The notes below the pieces were generated by a model that saw only the letters and a program-made list of their open reading frames with translations, did not search any database and had not been told where the DNA came from. The position numbers were made by a program, and so were the translations under genes. 36,884 bases of DNA, from assembly GCA_903921785.1 (NCBI GenBank), contig CAIXRH010000183.1, forward strand, positions 1-36,884, given 5' to 3'. Each line of letters opens with the position of its first letter. Position 1 is the stretch's first letter. Source of the DNA: an uncultured Pseudomonadota bacterium (GTDB taxonomy: Bacteria > Myxococcota_A > UBA796 > SXON01). Of this stretch, positions 12,012 through 26,834 are shown one piece after another.

Positions 12012-12089
12012 GCGGTCGGGCGAGGAACAGCCGCCGGCGGGCGGCGACGCAGCGGGCGGGGCCCGACGAAACCACGGCCTCGGGGCGCC

Positions 12090-12141
12090 GGGAGGCGCCG
12101 CCGGGAGGCGCCGCCGGGAGGCGCCGCCGGAAGGTGCCGCT
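12090..12141. repeat. 13-bp tandem repeat
   Basis: Three perfect copies of GGGAGGCGCCGCC (12090-12128) and one degenerate copy (12129-12141), between the convergent genes ending at 12011 and 12171. The unit contains the palindrome GGCGCC. It does not belong to a supported gene. Confidence 0.85.
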
Positions 12142-12170: not shown

Positions 12171-13073
12171 CTACCCGCCGGCACCCACGCCGACGGGGAG
12201 CACCCCCGCGTCCCCGAGCACCCGTCGGACCCCGTCCACCGTGAGGCTGTTGCCCGCGAGGTCCCAGCGTGCTTCGCGGGAGAGTTCAGGTGGAAAGGTC
12301 CATGTCGACGGGAAGCCGAGCAGCCGCACCACCTCCTCGGGGGAGAACCGACGCACCACGCCGCGGTCACGGAGGTAGCTGCCCGAGCGTACATTGGACC
12401 GGCCGTACGCCGAGGTGAAACAGTTCGCGATCTCGGTGGGGTCCGTCGTGTCAAGGAAGTGAACGGAGTGACCGTGCGCGCGCACCAGCGCTTCGTCCAC
12501 CGTGAGCTCCGGGTCGGGCTCCGGGTCGAGGAACGCCGCGATCGGGCGGATCGGGGCGATCGGAGGCGGGGGCGCGAAGTCGGCGCGGTGGCGGCCGTCG
12601 CCGTCGCGCTGCGCCACGAGGTAGTAGCGCTGCCGCCGCATGGGAATCCCCAGCGCCGTCGGGCAGAGCAGGCGTTCGCTCAAGGTGTAGCCGGCGCCGA
12701 TGAGCGTCGCCCGGAGGTGGCCGCGGGTCGTGGATTCCACGAAGCCCGGGACGTTCTCCATCGCCACCACCGGCGGACGGAGCTCCACCAGGAGGTCGAG
12801 GACCCGCAAAAGTGCGCGCGTGCGCGGATCCTCGAGGTCCCGCCGGGCGCCGCGCACCGTGAACGGCTGACAGGGCGGGGACATCCACCAGGGCTCCGCC
12901 GAAAACGGCGCGAGCTGGGCGGCGCGCACGCCGACCAGGTTCCACGCCTTCGGCTGAAGCCCGTGGCTGAGCGCATAAGCGGCGTTGGCGTTGGCGCTCT
13001 GGTCGATCGCGGCGTGCACCGGGAGTCCCCAGGCCAACCCCGCGGCGCCGAGCCCGGAGAACAGCTCGAGCAC
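12171..13073 (-). CDS. Dnmt2/TRDMT1-like cytosine-C5 methyltransferase
   Basis: A 300-residue SAM-dependent cytosine-C5 methyltransferase. Motif I is LELFSGLGAAGLA (2-14), motif IV has the nucleophile Cys 68 in MSPPCQPFT, motif VI is ENVPG (106-110), motif VIII RQRYYLVA (147-154), and motif X includes GNSLTV (274-279). Several stretches follow the eukaryotic Dnmt2 tRNA-methyltransferase pattern: RRDLEDPRTRALL after motif IV, CPTALGIP before motif VIII, and the CFT triplet (218-220) with Tyr 223. Dnmt2 methylates C38 of tRNA; a Geobacter homologue acts on tRNA-Glu. The GTG start overlaps the TAG of the upstream lipoprotein gene. No restriction enzyme is nearby. An orphan DNA methyltransferase is the alternative. 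Confidence 0.88.
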   Translation of the reverse strand: MLELFSGLGAAGLAWGLPVHAAIDQSANANAAYALSHGLQPKAWNLVGVRAAQLAPFSAEPWWMSPPCQPFTVRGARRDLEDPRTRALLRVLDLLVELRPPVVAMENVPGFVESTTRGHLRATLIGAGYTLSERLLCPTALGIPMRRQRYYLVAQRDGDGRHRADFAPPPPIAPIRPIAAFLDPEPDPELTVDEALVRAHGHSVHFLDTTDPTEIANCFTSAYGRSNVRSGSYLRDRGVVRRFSPEEVVRLLGFPSTWTFPPELSREARWDLAGNSLTVDGVRRVLGDAGVLPVGVGAGG

Positions 13074-14143
13074 TAGTTCCCGCCGAGCTCCCGCTCCATG
13101 ACCCAGCGCACGACCTTGAGCCGGTTCGCGTCGAGGTTCGCGCTGAACCGCCAGGGGGTGAAGACGATCTTCCCATCCCCGAACGGGAACTCCACGAGCA
13201 TGGGCGCGTCGGTCTCGGTGCCGGTCTCCATGCCCTTGCGCCAGGGCGCGTCGGCGCGGAGGAAGACCTTCGCGTCGTCGCTGGCGTCCTTCACGATGGG
13301 CCAGGCGTCGAGGTCGAGGTTCATCTTGATCGAGTCGTTCCCCAGGGACTTCTGCAGGTCGTCGCTGTGGATGTCGCACGCCAGGAGGCCCGGCTCACCG
13401 ATCTGGGCGGCGTCGGGGTCGGCGCCCCCGTAGAAGTCCATCGCGTTCGGCCAGATCTGCTCGACCACGTCGTAGCTCCAGTCGCTCGCGAAGACGACGC
13501 CGCCATTGGTGACGTAGTCCTTCAGGTTCTGCTTCACCGTGTCGACGGTGGTCGCGTCGCTGCCGTCGCTGGAGTAGAAGATGCCGTCCTCGAGGTGACC
13601 GCCGGCGAAGAAGATGGCGCCGTACCTGGCCATCTCGTCGGGGTTGTCGAGGAACTGGAGCATCTCGTCGCCGGTCTGCCCGTCCACCGCGTGGGCGCCG
13701 CCGATGCCGACGCTCTGGAGCACGGTGTCGAAGTCGTCGAAGTCGCCGGTGATCACCGCGACCTCCACGTCGGCCGACGCGGCGCACTCTTCGTTGGGCA
13801 CCTCGGTCTCCGAGCCGTTGCTCACGTCCACGTCGAACATGTCGATCGTGGTGGAGCCGTACTGGATGTAGACCGTGTACGTGCCGTTCGCGAGGTCCTC
13901 GAGGAGCCAGTTCCCATCGGCGTCGGAGGTGGCCTTGCGGGTGTCGCGCAGCTCGCCGGTGTCGTCGATGACGTGCGTGTAGACGGTGGCGCCTTCGAGC
14001 CACTGGAAGGTCTCGGGGTTGCAGACCTTGCCGGAGATCGCCCCCTCGCCGTGCCCGTAGAGGTCGGGAACGCGGCTGAGCACGTTGTCGGTGTCGCAGG
14101 CCACGGCCGCGAGCAGCACGGGTAAGAACAGGAAGGAGCGCAT
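13073..14143 (-). CDS. Lipoprotein with carboxypeptidase-regulatory-like domain
   Basis: A 356-residue predicted lipoprotein: signal MRSFLFLPVLLAAVAC with lipobox Cys 16. Residues about 33-110 form a carboxypeptidase-D-regulatory-like beta domain (GAISGKVCN, then ATSDADGNWLLEDLANGTYTV). The rest (about 124-356) is an alpha/beta domain resembling class I glutamine-amidotransferase-like folds (VEVAVITGDFDDFD, YGAIFFAGGHLEDGIF, NGGVVFASDWSYDVV), but no catalytic triad is assigned. Its ATG overlaps the TGA of the vWA gene by one base, and its TAG overlaps the methyltransferase GTG. The three genes should be translated together. Likely outer-membrane or periplasmic; ligand unknown. Confidence 0.85.
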   Translation of the reverse strand: MRSFLFLPVLLAAVACDTDNVLSRVPDLYGHGEGAISGKVCNPETFQWLEGATVYTHVIDDTGELRDTRKATSDADGNWLLEDLANGTYTVYIQYGSTTIDMFDVDVSNGSETEVPNEECAASADVEVAVITGDFDDFDTVLQSVGIGGAHAVDGQTGDEMLQFLDNPDEMARYGAIFFAGGHLEDGIFYSSDGSDATTVDTVKQNLKDYVTNGGVVFASDWSYDVVEQIWPNAMDFYGGADPDAAQIGEPGLLACDIHSDDLQKSLGNDSIKMNLDLDAWPIVKDASDDAKVFLRADAPWRKGMETGTETDAPMLVEFPFGDGKIVFTPWRFSANLDANRLKVVRWVMERELGGN

Positions 14144-17223: not shown

Positions 17224-18303
17224 TCAAGTGCCGGGTGCCGGCCGCGCCAGCCCGGCCTCAACCGAGAAGACCTTGATGTCCACCGAGGTTTTTGGGAGGA
17301 ACCGGGAGTCAGTGGTGGTGACGAACACCTGGGCACCCATCCCGCTCACCACCCGCACCAATCGGGCCGTGCGGTCAGGATCGAGCTCGCTGCCGAGATC
17401 GTCTACCAGGAAGATGGGTGCTTCCGAGCCCGTACTTGCACACGCCAACTCCGCGAGCTTCCACGCAAGGACCACGGAGCGTGCCTGGCCCTGCGAGGCG
17501 TAGTTGCGGGCAAGATGCCCTTGCAAGCTGAACTCCAGGTCGTCCCGGTGGGGGCCCACCAGCGGCCGCCGCTGCTCTCGCTCCTGGGACCGGGCAGCGA
17601 ACAACTTCTGGAGGAGCACCTCCGCATCGCCCACCGCGTGGGGCCGGTACCGGACCGAGACCTCCTCCCGGCCGCCAAATGATTCGTAGAAGGTAGAGAA
17701 CTGCTTCGCCATCTGAGCGACGGTGTCCGTGCGCCGGGCCACCACCCGCACCGCGAGGCCCGCGAGCTGTGCGTCCACCGCGTCGAGCGTCGGGCCGTCC
17801 GCCGAGCCGGCGCGGAGAAGCGCCGCCTTGTGCTCCAGGCAGCGCCGGTACTGCTGGGCGAGGGACAGGTAGGACGGCTCGAGCGTGAGCGCGGCGCGGT
17901 CGAGCATCGAGCGGCGCAGGGCCGGCTCGCCTCGGACGGGAGCGACGTCCCCCGGGACGAACCAGGCGGCGCGGAAGCCGCGGAGCCAGGTCACCGCATC
18001 GACCGTACGATCTTCCCGGCGGAGGGTCCGCTCTCCCTCCGCCCACGCGATGCGGTGGCGGCGGGTCATCCCGTCGGACTCGACGAGCCCCTCCACCATC
18101 GCCTCGCGCGCCCCGAACTTCAGCAACTCGGCGGTTCGAGCCGTGCGGAAGCTCCGGAGCGTACCGAGCGCGGCCACGGCCTCGAGCCAGTTGGTCTTGC
18201 CCTGGCCGTTCGGGCCCACAAAGGCGACGAACGGCGCGTCGACATCCAGGACGTCGGCGCCCAGATTTCGGAACGACACGGCCTGCACACGCAGGAGCCG
18301 CAC
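17224..18303 (-). CDS. recF: DNA recombination/repair ATPase RecF
   Basis: A 359-residue SMC-like ATPase that helps load RecA at single-strand gaps with RecO and RecR. Walker A is GPNGQGKTN (30-38), the signature-like region is in YASQGQARSVVLAWKLAEL, and Walker B is PIFLVDDLGSELD. The N-terminus LRVQAVSFRNL and overall length fit the family. The GTG start lies 3 nt after the dnaN stop, so the genes are co-transcribed as dnaA-dnaN-recF usually are. Cytoplasmic. Confidence 0.97.
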   Translation of the reverse strand: MRLLRVQAVSFRNLGADVLDVDAPFVAFVGPNGQGKTNWLEAVAALGTLRSFRTARTAELLKFGAREAMVEGLVESDGMTRRHRIAWAEGERTLRREDRTVDAVTWLRGFRAAWFVPGDVAPVRGEPALRRSMLDRAALTLEPSYLSLAQQYRRCLEHKAALLRAGSADGPTLDAVDAQLAGLAVRVVARRTDTVAQMAKQFSTFYESFGGREEVSVRYRPHAVGDAEVLLQKLFAARSQEREQRRPLVGPHRDDLEFSLQGHLARNYASQGQARSVVLAWKLAELACASTGSEAPIFLVDDLGSELDPDRTARLVRVVSGMGAQVFVTTTDSRFLPKTSVDIKVFSVEAGLARPAPGT

Positions 18304-18306
18304 CCC

Positions 18307-19422
18307 TCAGTCCAGTCGGACGGGCATCACCACGAACAGGGCGTTGTCGTCGTCCATGTCGCGGAGGATGCAGGGGGAGAGCGCGTCGCCGAGCTCGAGG
18401 GACACCCGGCTGCCGGCCATCGCGCCGAGCACCTCCACCACGAAGCGGGCGTTGAAGCCCATGCTGATCGCCTCGCCGCTGTACTCGATGGGCACCTCTT
18501 CGCGGCACTCACCGGCGTCGAGCTTGCGGGCGGAGAGCACCAGTCCCTCAGGAGAAAACTGGAACTTCACGGAGTTGGTCGCGTCCGTGGCGAGGATCGA
18601 GACGCGACGGAGCGCTTCGCGGAGCGCATCCCGATCCACCAGGGCGCGGCGCTTGAAGGCCGCAGGGAGCACCTGGCGGTAGTCGGGGAAGTCGGCCTCC
18701 AGAAGCCGGCAATGCACGAGGACGCCGGGGTACTGGATGAGCGCGGCGCGGTCGCCGAACGCGATCTGCACGGGGCCGTCGTACCCTTCGAGGAGCTTGC
18801 GGATCTCGCCGAGGCCCTTGCGAGGGAGCAGCATCTTCCGGCCGATCCCGAGCTCGCCGGTGTAAGGGGCCTGCGCCCAGCAGAGGCGATTGCCGTCCGT
18901 GCCGACGAAGCGGACCACCGCGCCGGTGGCGGCGCTGGTGTCCTCGACGTGGGCGCCGTTGAGGCCGTAGCGGTTGTCGTCGGGCGCCACGGCGAAGTGC
19001 ACACGGTCGATCACGCCGCGGAGCGCCGGGCTCTCGATGGTGAGCGCCCGAGCCTGGTCCAGCGCCGGGGTGACCGGGAAGTCCGCCGCGGAAAACGTGG
19101 TGAGCTTGAACAGCGCCGAGCCGCAGCGAACCTCGAGGCGGCCGTTGTCGGTCAAGGTGAGGGTGACGATGTCACCCGACAGCACCTTGGCGACCTGGAA
19201 GAAATTCGCCGCATCCACCGCGATCTCTCCGGGCCGGCGTACCGTGGCCTGGTAGTCGGCGAGGATGGTCATCGTCTTGTCGGTGGCGGTGGCGCGGAGG
19301 CCATCGGCGGTGGCCTGGAGCAGCACGGCGCTGAGGATCGGCGAGGTCGGCCGCTTCTCGACGATTCCCTGGGCACGGGCGAGGGCTCGAACGAGCTCCT
19401 CTCGGTGGATGAGCAGATCCAT
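18307..19422 (-). CDS. dnaN: DNA polymerase III sliding clamp, beta subunit
   Basis: A 371-residue beta clamp that encircles DNA and tethers DNA polymerase III. The three clamp domains are recognisable: the N-terminus LIHREELVRALARAQGIVEKRP with PILSAVLLQ, and the C-terminus SPCILRDMDDDNALFVVMPVRL, matching the usual ending. Typical length. The ATG at 19422 has GGAAG a few bases upstream. It is downstream of dnaA across a 269-bp gap that carries DnaA boxes, and it is followed by recF after 3 nt. Confidence 0.97.
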   Translation of the reverse strand: MDLLIHREELVRALARAQGIVEKRPTSPILSAVLLQATADGLRATATDKTMTILADYQATVRRPGEIAVDAANFFQVAKVLSGDIVTLTLTDNGRLEVRCGSALFKLTTFSAADFPVTPALDQARALTIESPALRGVIDRVHFAVAPDDNRYGLNGAHVEDTSAATGAVVRFVGTDGNRLCWAQAPYTGELGIGRKMLLPRKGLGEIRKLLEGYDGPVQIAFGDRAALIQYPGVLVHCRLLEADFPDYRQVLPAAFKRRALVDRDALREALRRVSILATDATNSVKFQFSPEGLVLSARKLDAGECREEVPIEYSGEAISMGFNARFVVEVLGAMAGSRVSLELGDALSPCILRDMDDDNALFVVMPVRLD

Positions 19423-19501
19423 GAGGCTTCCGGGATGCAGGAGAGAGGGTTCTATACCGTAGAGAGAGAGCTTGAAGGTGATCCCAAAGGTCTATGGAGA
19501 G

Positions 19502-19510
19502 TGTGGATAA
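19502..19510 (-). promoter_or_regulatory. Perfect DnaA box
   Basis: TTATCCACA read on the minus strand, the consensus DnaA box, 80 bp upstream of the dnaN start. Confidence 0.8.
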
Positions 19511-19616
19511 CTGACTTTCCCTTGGTTCAAGCTCGGATCAAGATGATCATAAGCCAGCGGACATTCGGGCTCGGCGCGCTGAAGTTGTGCGCTTCCGGGA
19601 GGGTGCCGCGGAGGCC

Positions 19617-19625
19617 TGTGGACAA
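19617..19625 (-). promoter_or_regulatory. DnaA box with one mismatch
   Basis: TTGTCCACA on the minus strand, one base from the consensus TTATCCACA, between dnaA and the perfect box. Confidence 0.55.
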
Positions 19626-19691
19626 CCCCCCGAACGCTCCCCAGGTGCTCCACTGCTTCTCCGCTGGAAATCCGCTGGGTTGTCCATAGTC

Positions 19692-21005
19692 TCAACCGCC
19701 CCCGCGCACGATCTTCTCGAGGAGGTCCACCTCGGCGCGGAGGTTCGGATCTTTCCGCACTTCCGTGGTCACCTTTTTGCAGGCGTACTGCACCGTGGAG
19801 TTGTCCCGTTCGAAGGCGCGGCCGATCTCGGGGAAGGAGAGCTTCGCCACCTGCCGGCACAGGTACATCGCCAGTTGGCGGGGGTGGGCGATGTTGGCAG
19901 GGCGGCGTTCGCCCCGGATGTCGCTCGGGCGGATGTGGTAGTGCTCGGCGACGCGCTGGATGATCACGTCGGCGGAGGGCGGCGGGGCCTCGGGCGGCAG
20001 CACGTCCGCCATGCGCTCCTGGACGAAGCTCAGGGTGATCGGCCCGCCGTAGAACGCGTGCATGGCCGAGAGCCGGTTGAGTACGCCCTCGGCCTCGCGC
20101 ACGCTGTTTCGGACGCGTTGCGCGATGGCGTACTGCACCTCGGAAGGCAGGTCGAGCCGAAGGGCTTCCGCCTTCTTCGCGAGGATGGCGGTCATCGTCT
20201 CCACATCGGGAGGCTGAACATCGGCGAGGAGGCCCTGAGAGAAGCGCGTACGCAGTCGGGGCTCCAGCTTGCCGATCTCCTGGGGCGGCTGGTCCGCCGC
20301 CAGGACAATCTGCTTGCGGGCGGTGAGCATCGTCTCAAAGACGTAGAAGACCTCTTCTTCGGTGCGATCGCGGCCGGCGATGAACTGCACGTCGTCGAGC
20401 AAGAGGACATCGACCTCGGTGCGGAACCGCTCGCGGAACTCGGGGATGGTCCGGTTCTGGAACGCGGACACCATCGCGTCGAAGAACTGTTGGCCGGTGA
20501 GGTAGAGGACCCCGCCGCCGAGGCGCCGCTCGACGCGGTTGCCGATGGCGTGCATCAGGTGGGTCTTGCCGAGCCCGGTGCTTCCGTAGACGAAGAGGGG
20601 GTTGTAGGCGGAGCCGGGCGCGTCGGCGACGGCGTTGGCGACGCCGTGGGCGAACTCGTTGCACTTGCCGACCACGAAGTTGTCGAACGTCATCCCTCGT
20701 TCGAGGTGCGACGGGGTGCGACGCGAGCGGGACGGGGGCGCGGCTTCCGGTTCGGCGGGGGCGCCGTCCCAGGTGATGTCGACCGCCACGGGGTGGCCGA
20801 GGGCCTCATCCCAGGCGGAGCGGATCTCGCTGAGGAAATTGTCGCGAATCCACTCGTAGGTGACGCGGTTCTCGGCGCGGAGCCGGACCCGTTCGGGGCT
20901 GGCATGATCCAACCGCAGCGCGCCGCTGCGCACCCAGATGTCCATGTTTTGCGCGCCAATCCGCCGCTCAAGCCCCGCGCAGAAGATCGACCAAGCCTCT
21001 TCCAT
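19692..21005 (-). CDS. dnaA: Chromosomal replication initiator DnaA
   Basis: A 437-residue initiator. Domain I (about 1-80) is followed by a short Pro/Ser/Arg linker (81-104), the AAA+ domain with Walker A GSTGLGKT (141-148) and Walker B LLLDD (201-205), and the DNA-binding domain IV (about 344-437) with HPRQLAMYL and FPEIGRAFERDNSTV. The last helix-turn-helix loop reads FERDNSTV where most DnaA proteins have F-G-x-RDH-[TS]-TV, so the usual His is Asn. The ATG at 21005 is preferred over a GTG one codon upstream. A TATTCT (21026-21021) could be its -10 element. Divergent from rpmH, followed by dnaN. Confidence 0.97.
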   Translation of the reverse strand: MEEAWSIFCAGLERRIGAQNMDIWVRSGALRLDHASPERVRLRAENRVTYEWIRDNFLSEIRSAWDEALGHPVAVDITWDGAPAEPEAAPPSRSRRTPSHLERGMTFDNFVVGKCNEFAHGVANAVADAPGSAYNPLFVYGSTGLGKTHLMHAIGNRVERRLGGGVLYLTGQQFFDAMVSAFQNRTIPEFRERFRTEVDVLLLDDVQFIAGRDRTEEEVFYVFETMLTARKQIVLAADQPPQEIGKLEPRLRTRFSQGLLADVQPPDVETMTAILAKKAEALRLDLPSEVQYAIAQRVRNSVREAEGVLNRLSAMHAFYGGPITLSFVQERMADVLPPEAPPPSADVIIQRVAEHYHIRPSDIRGERRPANIAHPRQLAMYLCRQVAKLSFPEIGRAFERDNSTVQYACKKVTTEVRKDPNLRAEVDLLEKIVRGGG

Positions 21006-21296
21006 CACCCTCTGACCGGGAGAATACGGCCCCGGGGTTCGGCACTCGATCGTGTCGCCCCCGCTGCTCGCCGCCTGCCCGACCCGAATTAGCCCGGCTG
21101 GCCGATCGGTTTCAAGGTGCCGGCGGTCGATCCGTGTCCCCGGGAGCCTCGCGCCGTCGATCAACGGCCGGTTGGGGGTGGATTTTGAGAAAAGAGCAGG
21201 ATCGTGATCCACTTCCCGGGATCGAACGCTCTTGACGATCGGGTTTGCGGGCGGCTGGAAATGGGTTAGCCGCCGGGGCTTGATTCGGAGTCGACA
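21006..21296. other. dnaA-rpmH divergent intergenic region
   Basis: A 291-bp non-coding gap. It has a small AT-richer patch (21181-21197, ATTTTGAGAAAAG) flanked by the inverted pair GTGGAT (21178-21183) and ATCCAC (21207-21212). These resemble half DnaA boxes, but no full box is found. TTGACG at 21232-21237 is a candidate -35 element for rpmH with no clear -10. It must hold the promoters of both dnaA and rpmH. Confidence 0.5.
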
Positions 21297-21452
21297 ATGA
21301 AGCGCACCTTCCAGCCTCACAACAAGCGCCGCAAGCGCACCCACGGCTTCCGGGCCCGTATGGCCACCGCCGCGGGGCGGAACGTGCTTTCTCGGCGGCG
21401 CGCCAAGGGCCGTAAGCGCCTCGTCGTCACCGTTGCCACCAAGCACGACTGA
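21297..21452 (+). CDS. rpmH: 50S ribosomal protein L34
   Basis: A 51-residue, strongly basic protein starting [20 protein letters not shown], the L34 signature, and continuing through [20 protein letters not shown]. Slightly longer than the usual 44-47 residues because of a short C-terminal extension (VVTVATKHD). GGAG lies 6 nt before the ATG. It overlaps the start of rnpA by 20 nt. First gene of the rpmH-rnpA-yidD-yidC-jag-mnmE cluster. Confidence 0.97.
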
Positions 21453-21777
21453 GCCTCCCGAGCGGCTCCGGCGCTCGGCGGACTACGCTCGAGCGCAGGC
21501 ACAGGGACGCCGGCAACGAGGTCGCCTCCTCACGGTGGTGGCCTCGCCCGGACCGGAGTCGCGTTCGCGGGTGGGGATGGCTGTGTCTCGGAAGGTTGGC
21601 AACGCCGTCACGCGGAACCGGGTGAAACGATGGTTGCGGGAGGCGGTGCGAGCCGCTCCGAACTTCGTGCCGCCAGGCGCCGACGTGGTGATTATTGCTC
21701 AGCCGGCCGCGGCCACGGCGGGCCTCACCGCCCTGTACCAAGAGCTCACCACGCTGCTCACCCGACTCGCCCGATGA
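21433..21777 (+). CDS. rnpA: Ribonuclease P protein component
   Basis: A 114-residue protein subunit of RNase P, which matures tRNA 5' ends. The N-terminal [17 protein letters not shown] and the RNR box [20 protein letters not shown] (about 51-70) are characteristic. No ATG or GTG is available; the TTG at 21433 is the only standard start before the conserved region, so the gene overlaps rpmH by 20 nt. The stop overlaps the yidD ATG by 4 nt. Confidence 0.95.
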
Positions 21778-22007
21778 CCTGGTTCCTGCTCACCATGATC
21801 CGCGGCTGGCAGCGCGTTGTTTCGCGCTTCCTTCCACCGGTCTGCCGGTTCTATCCTTCGTGTAGCCGGTACACCGCCCAGGCCATCGAGGCCTGGGGGC
21901 CGGTGCATGGCAGCTGGCTGGGGTTCAAGCGGATCTGCAGCTGCCACCCCCTGAACCCGGGCGGGTTCGATCCCGTGCCGCTTCCGCCGCCGAAGGAGCA
22001 AGCGTGA
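21774..22007 (+). CDS. yidD: Membrane protein insertion efficiency factor YidD
   Basis: A 77-residue YidD protein that assists YidC-dependent insertion. After an amphipathic start ([20 protein letters not shown]) it carries the family core CRFYPSCSRYTAQAIEAWG and ICSCHPLNPGGFDPVP with the conserved cysteines. Its ATG lies in the rnpA stop (ATGA) and its TGA overlaps the yidC GTG, so translation is probably coupled on both sides. Inner face of the cytoplasmic membrane. Confidence 0.96.
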   Translation: MTWFLLTMIRGWQRVVSRFLPPVCRFYPSCSRYTAQAIEAWGPVHGSWLGFKRICSCHPLNPGGFDPVPLPPPKEQA

Positions 22008-23689
22008 AGGACAACAACGAGCGGCGGTTGCTCATGGCCGTGGCCGTCAGCCTCGCGATTGTGTGGTTGTGGAGCGCCGTTTTCGGTCCCAAGCCCACCC
22101 CCGAGGAACAGCTCGCTGCCGACGGTACGACGATCACCGCCCCGGCGGAGGGAACGGCGCCGGCAGCGGGAGCCACGGTCGCCGCGGAAGGCACGCCCCC
22201 TGCGCCGACGGCCTCGGCCAGCCCTGCGGCCGCTGAAGCGCCGTGCACGGGCGCCACCGCCAGCATCAAGTCCGAGACCGCCGAGTTCACCGTTTCCGAC
22301 TGCGGCGCGGTCCGGTCGGTGCGGCTGCTCGGCGTGCCTGCGGCCGTCAGCGCCCACCCGTGGTGGAGTTGGGGCTACGGGCGCATCTTCGGCGGGCAAT
22401 CCGGTTCCTGGTCGCCCTACACCGAGGATGAGGGCGAGCTCGATCTCCTCACCAAGGGTGAGTTCCTCACCGCGGGCCAGGGCGCGTTCGCCACCGGCGG
22501 CACGTGGACCATCACGTCCACCGATCCGCTGGTGCAGCAGCGCACCACCTCGGAGGGGCTGCGGATCATCCGCACGATCCAGAAGGGCGACTCGGCGGAC
22601 CTCTGGAACGTCACCGTACGCTTCGAGGCCGACCACACGATCAACGGGCAGCTCTGGATCGGCGTCGCGGACGAGTTCACCGACGGCAGCCGCTCGTCTT
22701 CCAATCCCGGCCTCGTCGGCGTCGTGGACGGGAGCCTCAGCTCGCTCACCTCTCCGTCCTCGCTCAAAGAGCCCAAGGACCTGTCTTCCCCGGTGGACTG
22801 GTTCGGCGTGGCCGACCGGTTCTACATGGCCTCCGCCGCGCCGGTGGACCCGGGTGGCGCCAAGCTCCAGTGGGCCCGGGTGGATGACAAGCGGGTGGGC
22901 GCGTTCATGACGCTCCCCGCGACCAGCGTGGGCCCCGGCGCCTCGGTGGAGAAGGCCTTCGTGGTCTACGCCGGGCAGCGGGAGATGCACCGGCTGGAAG
23001 CGGCCGGGCATTCGTTCGACAAGGCGGTGTCCCTCGGCTGGTTCGGGCTGTTCGCGAAGTTCCTCCTGGTCACGCTGCACCTGATCCACGATCGGGTCGG
23101 CAACTGGGGCTTCTCCATCCTCGCGCTCACGCTGCTCGTCCGGCTGGTCACCTACCCGCTCACCCGCTCGGCGGTGGTGTCGGGGCGGAAGATGCAGTCG
23201 CTGCAGCCCGAGCTCAAGAAGCTTCAGGAGCAGTACGCCGAGGACAAAGAAGCGCTGAATCGGGAGACGATGGCGCTCTGGTCGAAGAACGGGGTGAACC
23301 CCGTCGGCGGCTGCCTCCCGATGCTCATCCAGATGCCCGTTTTCTTCGCGCTCTACCAGGCGCTCGCCTACGAGCCGAGCTTGTTCCACGCCGACTTCTT
23401 CTACTTGAAGGACCTCAGCGCGCAGGACCCCTTCGGCATCCTCGGCCTGTTTGTCATGGGCGGGATGTACGTGCAGCAGCTCGTGTCCCCCGCCCCGGGA
23501 ATGGACCCCACCCAGGCCCAGATGATGCGGCTCATGCCGCTCATCTTCGGACTGATGATGTTCTCCGCTCCCGCCGGTCTCTCCCTGTATTACTCGCTCA
23601 ACACGGTCCTCGCGATCGTGCAGCAGTGGTACAACTCCCGTACCATCCCCCCGGTCGTCCCCCCTGGAGCCGCAAATGTCCCTGCCTGA
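22004..23689 (+). CDS. yidC: Membrane protein insertase YidC
   Basis: A 561-residue YidC/Oxa1 insertase of the Gram-negative type. A first membrane helix (about 9-27) is followed by a Pro/Ala-rich linker, a large periplasmic domain (about 75-330) and the conserved insertase core (about 350-550). The core begins with the helix NWGFSILALTLLVRLVTYPL, which holds the groove Arg, followed by the cytoplasmic hairpin and further helices (LPMLIQMPVFFALYQAL, ILGLFVMGGMYVQQL). The large periplasmic domain fits a diderm cell. GTG start with AAGGAG upstream; it overlaps yidD by 4 nt and jag by 14 nt. Confidence 0.97.
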   Translation: MKDNNERRLLMAVAVSLAIVWLWSAVFGPKPTPEEQLAADGTTITAPAEGTAPAAGATVAAEGTPPAPTASASPAAAEAPCTGATASIKSETAEFTVSDCGAVRSVRLLGVPAAVSAHPWWSWGYGRIFGGQSGSWSPYTEDEGELDLLTKGEFLTAGQGAFATGGTWTITSTDPLVQQRTTSEGLRIIRTIQKGDSADLWNVTVRFEADHTINGQLWIGVADEFTDGSRSSSNPGLVGVVDGSLSSLTSPSSLKEPKDLSSPVDWFGVADRFYMASAAPVDPGGAKLQWARVDDKRVGAFMTLPATSVGPGASVEKAFVVYAGQREMHRLEAAGHSFDKAVSLGWFGLFAKFLLVTLHLIHDRVGNWGFSILALTLLVRLVTYPLTRSAVVSGRKMQSLQPELKKLQEQYAEDKEALNRETMALWSKNGVNPVGGCLPMLIQMPVFFALYQALAYEPSLFHADFFYLKDLSAQDPFGILGLFVMGGMYVQQLVSPAPGMDPTQAQMMRLMPLIFGLMMFSAPAGLSLYYSLNTVLAIVQQWYNSRTIPPVVPPGAANVPA

Positions 23690-24575
23690 GAACCACGTCG
23701 TCGCCGAAGGGCGCACCCTCCTCGCCGCGCGCGAGGCCGCCGCGGTGCAGCTCGGCGTGCCCGTCAACGCCGTCGAGCACAAGCTGGACCTGGCGCACTT
23801 CAAGGCCTCCGGCACCGCCGGCGCCGCCACGGTGAAGATCTTCGCCTGGGCCAAGGACATGGCCGGCGTCGCGCCCGCGATGGCCGCCGAGGCCTGGATC
23901 AAGGCCCTCCTCGAGACCATGGGCCGCCAGGCCACCGTCCGCGCCGAGATGCGCGGCGACCAGGCCGTCGTCTTCGTGGACGCGGGCGATGCCGCGCGCC
24001 ACCTCGTGGGCCGCCAGGGCACGACGCTCCGCGCCATCGAGCACCTGCTCGCCCGCAACGTCGGCGGCGCGTTCCCCGACGTGAACTTCCGGATCGACGT
24101 CGCCCGCAACGACGACGGCCCGCCGCGCGACCGTGACGATCGCCCCCGCGACCGCGACGACCGCCCCCGCGACGACCGCCCCCGCGACGATCGCCCGCGC
24201 CCCCCGCGCGACGATCGTGGCGAGCGCCGCTTCGACCGCCCCCGTGAGGATCGTCCCCGCGACGACCGCCCCCGGGACGACCGCCCCCGGGACGACCGCC
24301 CTCGCGGCCCCCGCGACGATCGTGGGGATCGTGGCGATCGCCCCCGCCGCAACGACGGCGAAGCCCTGAAGAGCCTCGCCCGCAAGCTGGCCTCCAAGGT
24401 GCGTGAGACCGGCGAGCCCGAGGTCATCCGCCGCGAGCTCAACAGCTTCGACCGGCGCCTCGTTCACCTGGAAGTCGCGGACATCGAGGGTGTCGCCTCC
24501 CGTTCGGTGGGCGAAGGCTCCGAGCGTCGCGTCGAGATCTACGTGCCCGCCGCCGCGGACGGCGCGGGCGAGTAG
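23676..24575 (+). CDS. jag: Jag/KhpB RNA-binding protein with Arg-Asp-rich linker
   Basis: A 299-residue Jag (KhpB) RNA-binding protein. Jag-N is about 5-60, the KH domain about 65-142 with GRQGTTL (112-118), and the R3H domain about 229-291 with NSFDRRLVHLEV and SVGEGSERRVEIY. Between KH and R3H lies an 83-residue insert (146-228) made almost entirely of Arg, Asp and Pro in RPRDD-type repeats, encoded by a matching GC-rich DNA repeat (about 24112-24357). Such a zwitterionic linker is likely disordered and may favour RNA condensation, which is inference. The ATG lies inside the end of yidC. Confidence 0.94.
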   Translation: MSLPENHVVAEGRTLLAAREAAAVQLGVPVNAVEHKLDLAHFKASGTAGAATVKIFAWAKDMAGVAPAMAAEAWIKALLETMGRQATVRAEMRGDQAVVFVDAGDAARHLVGRQGTTLRAIEHLLARNVGGAFPDVNFRIDVARNDDGPPRDRDDRPRDRDDRPRDDRPRDDRPRPPRDDRGERRFDRPREDRPRDDRPRDDRPRDDRPRGPRDDRGDRGDRPRRNDGEALKSLARKLASKVRETGEPEVIRRELNSFDRRLVHLEVADIEGVASRSVGEGSERRVEIYVPAAADGAGE

Positions 24576-24596
24576 CGGAGTGCGAGGCTCCCTCCG

Positions 24597-25886
24597 GTGA
24601 CGTGGAGCCTCGCCACCGACACGATCGCCGCCTGCGCCACGCCGTGGGGCCACTCGGCCCTCGCGATGGTGCGGGTGAGCGGTCCCGACGCGCGGTCACG
24701 CGCCGAAGCGGTGGTCGGGCGTCTGCCCGCTCCGCGGCTCGCGCTGTGGCGGCGATTCCGTGACGCCACCGGCGCGTTCGACGACGGCATGGTCACCTGG
24801 TTTCCGGGGCCCGACAGCTACACCGGCGAGGACGTCGTGGAGCTCACCGGCCACGGCAATCCCCTGCTCGTCGAGCGGCTGCTCCGCGCGCTGGGCGCCC
24901 GCCCCGCGCGTCCGGGCGAGTTCACGCGCCGCGCCTTCCTCCACGGACGCCTCGACCTCACCCGGGCCGAGGCGGTGCTGGCGGCGTTGGAGGCGACCTC
25001 GGCGCGGGGGCTCGAGCACGCCCGGGCTGGGCTCGACGGCGCCGTCGCCTTTGAGGTGGGCGCCCTACGCGACGTGTTGACCGACGTCGCGGCCGAGCTG
25101 GAGGCCGGGCTCGACTACCCCGGAGAGGACCTGCTCTTTGCCCCGGAGGCAGCGCTGCGTACGCACCTCATCGGGGTGGGGGTTCGGTCCCGCGCGATGG
25201 CGGGGACGTTCACCGCCGGGAGGATCGCGGTGCAGGGCGCCCGCGTGGTGCTCGCCGGGCCGGTGAACGCGGGAAAATCCAGCCTGTTCAACGCGCTCCT
25301 CGGCCGCGAACGCGCCATCGTGTCCCCGACGCCGGGCACGACCCGGGACGCCGTGGAGGCCACGCTCCAGCTCCCCGAGGTGCGCATCACCCTGGTCGAC
25401 ACCGCCGGGGAGCGCGAGACACCCGACGTGCTGGAGGCCATCGGCATGCAGCGGGCGGCGGAAGAAGCCGCCGCGGCTGACCTGGTGATCCGCTGCATCC
25501 CGCCCGGTGAGGCGCCCCCGGCTGAGCGCCCAAATGAGCTTCGGGTGGGCACGATGATCGACCGGAGTCCGTCGCCGGTGCCGCTGGGGGTCTCGGCGCA
25601 GACGGGGGAAGGGCTCGACCTGCTCCGGGAGGCGCTGGTGCGGGCGCTCGTCGGCGAGACCCCCGGCTCGGTGGTGTCGGTGCTCACCAGTGCGCGGCAA
25701 GCCGAGCTGTTCAGCCGGGTGGCGGACCGGGTGGACGAAGCGGCGGTCGCGCTGGAGTCCGCGGGACCTGCCGTCGCGGTGGAGCTGCTCTATTCGGCGT
25801 TGGAGGCCCTCGCGGAGGTGAGCGGGGCCTCGGTTCGTGAAGCGGTCCTCGACCGGGTGTTCGCACGGTTCTGCATCGGGAAGTAG
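24597..25886 (+). CDS. mnmE: tRNA modification GTPase MnmE with altered G4 motif
   Basis: A 429-residue GTPase that, with MnmG, installs the (carboxymethyl)aminomethyl group on wobble U34 of tRNAs. The N-terminal folate-binding domain (1-115) has ATPWGHSALAMVRVSG. The G domain shows G1 GPVNAGKSS (221-229), G2 PGTTRD (246-251), G3 DTAG (268-271), G5-like SAQTG (333-337), and the C-terminal CIGK (426-429) with the formyl-folate Cys. The G4 NKxD reads TMID (319-322), and the sequence before it is shortened. The protein is a little shorter than the usual 450-460. GTG start, 21 nt after jag. Confidence 0.95.
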   Translation: MTWSLATDTIAACATPWGHSALAMVRVSGPDARSRAEAVVGRLPAPRLALWRRFRDATGAFDDGMVTWFPGPDSYTGEDVVELTGHGNPLLVERLLRALGARPARPGEFTRRAFLHGRLDLTRAEAVLAALEATSARGLEHARAGLDGAVAFEVGALRDVLTDVAAELEAGLDYPGEDLLFAPEAALRTHLIGVGVRSRAMAGTFTAGRIAVQGARVVLAGPVNAGKSSLFNALLGRERAIVSPTPGTTRDAVEATLQLPEVRITLVDTAGERETPDVLEAIGMQRAAEEAAAADLVIRCIPPGEAPPAERPNELRVGTMIDRSPSPVPLGVSAQTGEGLDLLREALVRALVGETPGSVVSVLTSARQAELFSRVADRVDEAAVALESAGPAVAVELLYSALEALAEVSGASVREAVLDRVFARFCIGK

Positions 25887-25895
25887 GAGGGGCGG

Positions 25896-26834
25896 ATGCG
25901 CTCACTCTTCGTGATGGACCCCCTGGAGACGCTGGACCTCTCCGGCGACTCGACGTTCGCGCTCATGCGCGCCAGCACCGGCCGGGGTTGGGAGGTCTGG
26001 TGGTGCCACCCGAGCGCGATGTGGGGCGAAGGGGGCCGGGCGAAGGCGCGGGCGCAGCGGGTGGTCACCACCGCCGCGGGATTCGACCGGCAGGAGTGGG
26101 CCGAGGTGGAGCTGGCGGACTTCCAGGTCGTGTGGATGCGGAAGGACCCGCCCTTCGACATGACCTACATCTTCACCACCTACCTGCTCGACCTGGTGCC
26201 GCCGTCGACCCTGGTGCTGAACAACCCCGCCGGCCTGCGCTCGCGCAACGAGAAGCTCTTCGCGGCCGCCTACGCCGACCTCACCCCGCCCACGCTCATC
26301 AGCCGCGACATCCAGCGGATCATGGCGTTCACCGCGGCGCTCCCCGACCGGGTGGTGCTCAAGCCGTGGGATGGCAACGGCGGGCGCGGCGTCCTTGTCT
26401 CCCGCGCGGGCGACCCCAACCTGCGCTCGATGATCGAGGTGCTCTCCGACGAAGGGCGCCGGTACATCCTCGCGCAGCGGTACCTCCCGGAGATCGTGGC
26501 CGGGGACAAGCGCATCATCCTCATCGACGGGGAGCCGGCGGGCGCGGTGCTCCGCGTCCCGGGGACGGCGGACCACCGGGGCAACCTCCATGTGGGCGCC
26601 ACGGCGCATCGCACCACGCTCACGCCCCGCGAGCAGGAGATCTGCGCCCAGATCGGTCCCACGCTCCGGGCCGAAGGGCTGGTCTTCGTGGGGATCGACG
26701 TGATCGGCGGCTGGCTCACCGAGATCAACGTCACCAGCCCCACCGGCATCCACCAGATCAACGCCTTCGACGGGGTGCAACTCGAAGAGCGGCTCCTCGA
26801 CGCGGCGGAGCGGCGCGCGGCGGAGCGTTCGTGA
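25896..26834 (+). CDS. gshB: Glutathione synthetase
   Basis: A 312-residue ATP-grasp enzyme joining gamma-glutamylcysteine and glycine. Recognisable segments are MDPLETLDLSGDSTFALM at the start, RKDPPFDMTYIFTTYLLD, NNPAGLRSRNEKLFA, the ATP-binding VLKPWDGNGGRGV, and FVGIDVIGGWLTEINVTSPTG near the C-terminus with the Mg-binding Glu/Asn. Full length. A strong AGGAGG is 5 nt before the ATG. The gene for its partner GshA is not in the window. The last 4 nt overlap the next gene. Confidence 0.96.
   Translation: MRSLFVMDPLETLDLSGDSTFALMRASTGRGWEVWWCHPSAMWGEGGRAKARAQRVVTTAAGFDRQEWAEVELADFQVVWMRKDPPFDMTYIFTTYLLDLVPPSTLVLNNPAGLRSRNEKLFAAAYADLTPPTLISRDIQRIMAFTAALPDRVVLKPWDGNGGRGVLVSRAGDPNLRSMIEVLSDEGRRYILAQRYLPEIVAGDKRIILIDGEPAGAVLRVPGTADHRGNLHVGATAHRTTLTPREQEICAQIGPTLRAEGLVFVGIDVIGGWLTEINVTSPTGIHQINAFDGVQLEERLLDAAERRAAERS

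Follow-up and report, generated by a model that had tools for sequence, protein, structure and literature searches.

The methyltransferase locus

The window, by which we mean the whole stretch of 36,884 nucleotides that was analysed, carries on its minus strand an open reading frame with a GTG start at 13073 and a stop at 12171–12173. An earlier note had placed a gene at 12171–13073 from the letters of the DNA alone; these coordinates proved exact, the minus strand having gone unstated. Judged by its sequence, the frame is not a chance one, since it matches the Pfam DNA_methylase family at 1.5e-25 and has a homologue in 10 of the 10 congeneric relatives searched (57–67% identity). The features of the locus are as follows:

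12171..13073, minus strand: predicted Dnmt2-family tRNA (cytosine-C5) methyltransferase gene (300 aa, GTG start, TAG stop)
13044..13073, minus strand: motif I VLELFSGLGA, AdoMet binding, residues 1–10 (from alignments)
12858..12878, minus strand: motif IV PPCQPFT, residues 66–72, with catalytic Cys68, followed by a Dnmt2-like RRDLEDPR stretch (from alignments)
12750..12758, minus strand: motif VI ENV, residues 106–108 (invariant in both alignments)
12621..12635, minus strand: motif VIII RQRYY, residues 147–151, after CPTALGIP (R147 and R149 invariant in the 39-member bacterial alignment)
12414..12422, minus strand: Dnmt2-diagnostic CFT motif, residues 218–220 (CFTSAYGRS, 218–226; diagnostic status from PMC3227630)
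12246..12254, minus strand: motif X GNS, residues 274–276 (from the alignment)
13073..14125, minus strand: upstream gene, ∼350 aa, carboxypeptidase-regulatory-like domain, exact start uncertain

The stop codon of the upstream gene overlaps the methyltransferase start (TAGTG), and the two genes are therefore probably co-transcribed, although a functional link between them is not known. The carboxypeptidase-regulatory-like gene adjoins the homologue in 7/10 congeneric genomes; in the window it is one of two upstream genes on the same strand, the other encoding a von Willebrand A protein. The downstream neighbours are genes of a pyruvate:ferredoxin-type oxidoreductase, and recF, dnaN, yidC, jag and mnmE lie farther away. 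The latter genes, spread over 17224–26834 (recF and dnaN in minus orientation, yidC, jag (R3H) and mnmE in plus orientation), form the usual replication-origin neighbourhood, and the methyltransferase gene is therefore probably near oriC. Just 3′ of the gene, at 12060–12130, a GC-rich 13-base unit is repeated in tandem (GGCGGCGCCTCCC).

The catalytic core is complete, with all of the C5-methyltransferase motifs tested being present: I, IV (PPC), VI (ENV), VIII (RxR) and X (GNS). The segments quoted in the earlier note were all recovered from the reverse complement, namely MSPPCQPFT, RRDLEDPRTRALL, CPTALGIP, CFT with GS downstream (CFTSAYGRSNVRSGSYL), LLGFPSTWTFP and GNSL. When the protein was aligned with four eukaryotic Dnmt2 enzymes and 13 relatives, the invariant positions were the catalytic Cys with its flanking SP/QP, the D-D-R positions that follow, ENV, the two motif VIII arginines, the FT of CFT with a Tyr, and GNS. 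PPCQP, D82 and R84 were also invariant across the 39 bacterial members of a separate alignment. The CFT motif has been described as diagnostic of Dnmt2 (PMC3227630); it occurs in 41/53 bacterial members (5/53 have CFI) and in none of the 15 DNA enzymes compared.

Some relatives depart from this pattern. Loci L034, L053, L056, L060 and ∼30 others, nearly all from Holophagae, carry P[FY]CRMG after motif IV and have CFI replacing CFT. They make up a clade of their own and are a candidate subfamily with altered specificity. In a same-order relative (L033) motif IV reads SPPCAPHG, the Gln and Phe being lost, and this may be a drifting or inactive copy.

Family assignment, phylogeny and distribution

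General profile libraries assigned the protein no further than to the C5-methyltransferases. Pfam gave the broad C5 DNA_methylase family alone (PF00145), the match to the NCBIfam dcm model fell below the model cut-off, and the PADLOC type II methyltransferase profile MTase_II matched at 2.2e-26; PADLOC, PHROG and Pfam all label the protein as a DNA methylase. We set the PADLOC label aside because S. pombe Pmt1, a known tRNA enzyme, matches the same top profile, and with a better score than our protein. The host role of family members may be misread because such libraries call them DNA methyltransferases.

The four best PDB sequence matches were all eukaryotic Dnmt2, with human DNMT2 at 4.1e-32, S. 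pombe Pmt1 at 2.9e-30 and Spodoptera DNMT2 at 1.7e-27, HhaI following later at 5.1e-14. By blastp, Dnmt2 enzymes scored 106–136 bits vs 83 for the best DNA enzyme, while a contrast enzyme (HhaI-type, same phylum) scored 228 bits vs HhaI and 39 vs DNMT2. A confident AlphaFold2 model built on an alignment of 39 bacterial sequences (pLDDT 95, pTM 0.91) was compared with the PDB using Foldseek; ranks 1–9 were all Dnmt2 chains (E 1.4e-26 to 1.8e-23, TM 0.81–0.84), followed by HhaI at 2.4e-19. The Dnmt2 resemblance proposed in the earlier note is thus borne out by sequence search, fold comparison, the CFT motif and the tree described below, and we regard membership in the Dnmt2 family as well supported and close to certain.

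The tree comprised 72 sequences: 15 DNA C5-methyltransferases taken from the same genome, the same phylum, and phage and plasmid records; 53 bacterial Dnmt2-like proteins (the query and 52 others); and four eukaryotic Dnmt2 enzymes. Relatives were drawn from 94 related genomes and from the GTDB species genomes, a scan of which with one short motif/alignment yielded 174 confirmed loci, the best 80 of the 174 being kept. In place of G. sulfurreducens GSU0227 the tree has Geobacter-named relatives, which group among other bacteria. A branch with 100/100 support splits the 15 DNA enzymes from the 53 bacterial and four eukaryotic Dnmt2 sequences, and the query falls on the Dnmt2 side. Branching inside the bacterial DNA C5-methyltransferases, which the earlier note had named as speaking against its proposal, was not seen, and trees constrained to place the query lineage within one or the other half of the DNA enzymes were rejected (AU p 0.011 and 0.0021). 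Grouping the query lineage with all DNA enzymes gave p 0.16, so that a basal position in the Dnmt2 clade, beside the DNA enzymes, was not rejected; because a lineage at the base of the Dnmt2 clade, but within it, satisfies the same constraint, this test says nothing on nesting, and the two nested tests were used instead.

The eukaryotic enzymes, represented by four sequences only in a tree whose bootstrap was not fully settled, formed a single branch (100/99). Holophagae branch first, and an arrangement with one bacterial clade beside the eukaryotes fits equally well (p 0.53); bacteria nested within eukaryotes were weakly disfavoured (p 0.095). A Geobacteraceae–eukaryote sister clade, as expected from simple transfer, was rejected (p 0.0016).

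The gene is present in 11/11 genomes of the genus and in 46/379 of the phylum. It is chromosomal, and was found in a single-contig genome. Searches of phage and plasmid collections returned distant DNA methylases only (best E 1e-8 and 6e-6); four matches, all weak, came from 2.9 million viral contigs. This distribution, together with the gene context, fits a housekeeping modification enzyme and not a defence module.

The view that bacterial Dnmt2 homologues are rare, repeated in the earlier note, is outdated. In a 2011 survey of >2300 enzymes, Geobacter was the sole bacterial source of Dnmt2, and acquisition from eukaryotes was proposed (PMC3227630); the 174 relatives in the GTDB scan include Holophagae, Planctomycetota, Desulfuromonadales, Syntrophales, Sulfurospirillum and Myxococcota. 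The protein type spans at least six phyla of bacteria (Acidobacteriota, Planctomycetota, Thermodesulfobacteriota, Campylobacterota, Cyanobacteriota/Melainabacteria, an Actinomycetota MAG, Myxococcota); many of the genomes bearing it are MAGs, some of them mislabelled, and isolates are included (Geothrix, Sulfurospirillum arcachonense). The titles of three MAGs, Klebsiella pneumoniae or Rhodobacterales, look wrong (L067, CAMASI010000037.1; L075, CAMAWH010000036.1; L102, JAACDH010000441.1), these records matching genomes of the window's own family or order. We found no description of such bacterial breadth in the literature searched, and one may exist elsewhere. The gene is a further member of the known Dnmt2 family, which is most familiar from animals and fungi as methylating a tRNA cytosine, and it adds to the evidence that bacteria carry this family widely.

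Proposed function and candidate substrates

From family membership we infer that the enzyme methylates C38 of tRNA, with a probability of about 0.84. The chemistry would be that of the DNA C5-methyltransferases, in which Cys68 would attack C6 of the base with the assistance of Glu106 and Arg147/149. This part of the analysis covered all 43 tRNA matches in the genome. The most likely substrate would be tRNA-Asp(GUC), whose loop, CUGUCAC, has C38; secondary candidates would be tRNA-Glu(CUC), both copies of which have the loop CUCUCAC with C38, and tRNA-Val. The modification would tune the charging or decoding of Asp codons. C38 is also found in Val(CAC), Val(GAC), both Gln, His, Pro(UGG) and one CAU tRNA. 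The host thus has C38 in a suitable anticodon loop, but this is a weak test: C38 was found in tRNA-Asp in 27/27 genomes where that tRNA was read, including relatives without the gene, and does not track gene presence. Because gene-less relatives carry C38 too, the tRNA data give no independent signal, and allow the proposed function without singling it out.

The Dnmt2 of G. sulfurreducens methylates tRNA-Glu (PMC4860778, PMC5372726), as the earlier note had stated, and likely at C38 of tRNA-Glu(UUC); in a Geobacter-named relative this tRNA has the loop CUUUCAC, with C38. A Geobacter-style C38 reaction on tRNA-Glu(UUC) is excluded in the organism studied here, in which the loop is UUUUCAU, with U38; U38 was found in every tRNA-Glu(UUC) read (28 related genomes), gene present or absent. 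With this reaction precluded, tRNA-Asp and tRNA-Glu(CUC) are the natural candidates. Queuosine stimulates Pmt1 in S. pombe (PMC5372726), and TGT genes, for queuosine, are present in the genome. Three are full-length members of the TGT family (G000:C199, G000:C144, G000:C75), one of them ∼230 bases from a tRNA-Arg gene.

Three other readings were weighed. The protein could be an orphan or regulatory DNA cytosine-C5 methyltransferase of the Dcm/HhaI type, Dnmt2-like in looks only; its catalytic motifs are those of DNA C5-methyltransferases and the Pfam, PHROG and PADLOC labels read DNA methylase. However, the tree and AU tests put it outside the DNA enzymes, Dnmt2 ranks first by both fold and sequence by many orders of magnitude, CFT is absent from all 15 DNA enzymes, and the two other C5 methyltransferases of the genome are clearly of a different type (PPCQPWS), all of which makes this reading improbable. 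Still harder to credit is that it serves as the methyltransferase of a restriction-modification module or another defence system. Although the PADLOC type II methyltransferase profiles match, the window genes around it belong to metabolism or replication or are lipoprotein-like, none with a defence match, and among the window genes tested there was no restriction gene or adjacent cognate endonuclease, as the earlier note had held. The neighbours of 40 related bacterial loci are likewise heterogeneous: for the 127 genes around them, the list of the 25 most frequent families shows neither an enriched partner nor an endonuclease; furthermore, the gene occurs throughout the genus and is not mobile.

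A reading closer to the favoured one is that this is a Dnmt2-family enzyme whose main target is not tRNA-Asp but something else, such as C38 of tRNA-Glu(CUC), tRNA-Val or tRNA-Gln, or a non-tRNA substrate. Dnmt2 specificity is known to shift, Geobacter preferring tRNA-Glu, and several non-Asp tRNAs have C38 here; yet a conserved tRNA-Asp with the CUGUCAC loop is present, and Asp is the target of nearly all characterised Dnmt2 enzymes. We consider this reading unlikely, if well ahead of the two above, and retain C38 of tRNA, with tRNA-Asp as the most likely substrate. On a broader scale, we tentatively suggest, at somewhat less than even odds, that Dnmt2 may be an old bacterial tRNA methyltransferase family and the source of the eukaryotic enzyme, and not a eukaryotic invention given to Geobacter. 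Myxococcota members would then act on tRNA-Asp and/or Glu(CUC), targets proposed because their tRNA-Glu(UUC) is without C38.

Comparison with known systems

The protein shares with Dnmt2/TRDMT1 (human DNMT2, S. pombe Pmt1, Spodoptera DNMT2, Entamoeba EhMeth) its fold (TM-score ∼0.8), the C5 motifs, SPPCQPFT followed by RDLEDPR, CFT with a downstream GS, GFP and GNSL. It differs from these eukaryotic enzymes in its bacterial host and in being only 24–32% identical to them; at 300 aa it is also shorter, lacking the insert that animal Dnmt2 enzymes carry between CFT and motif IX. With M.HhaI, Dcm and M.HaeIII, bacterial DNA C5-methyltransferases, it has in common the catalytic motifs and overall fold (HhaI E 2.4e-19), but it has CFT, sits outside their clade (100/100) and has a different target-recognition region.

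A third comparison is with the bacterial Dnmt2 of Geobacter sulfurreducens (GSU0227), made here via Geobacter-named relatives, which are 42–45% identical to our protein and belong to the same bacterial radiation. In contrast to Geobacter, where tRNA-Glu is the substrate and the tRNA-Glu(UUC) of a Geobacter-named relative has C38, the corresponding tRNA of the present host has U38. The bacterial breadth of the family makes the origin of Dnmt2, and the turn of a DNA-methyltransferase fold to tRNA, testable with many bacterial enzymes.
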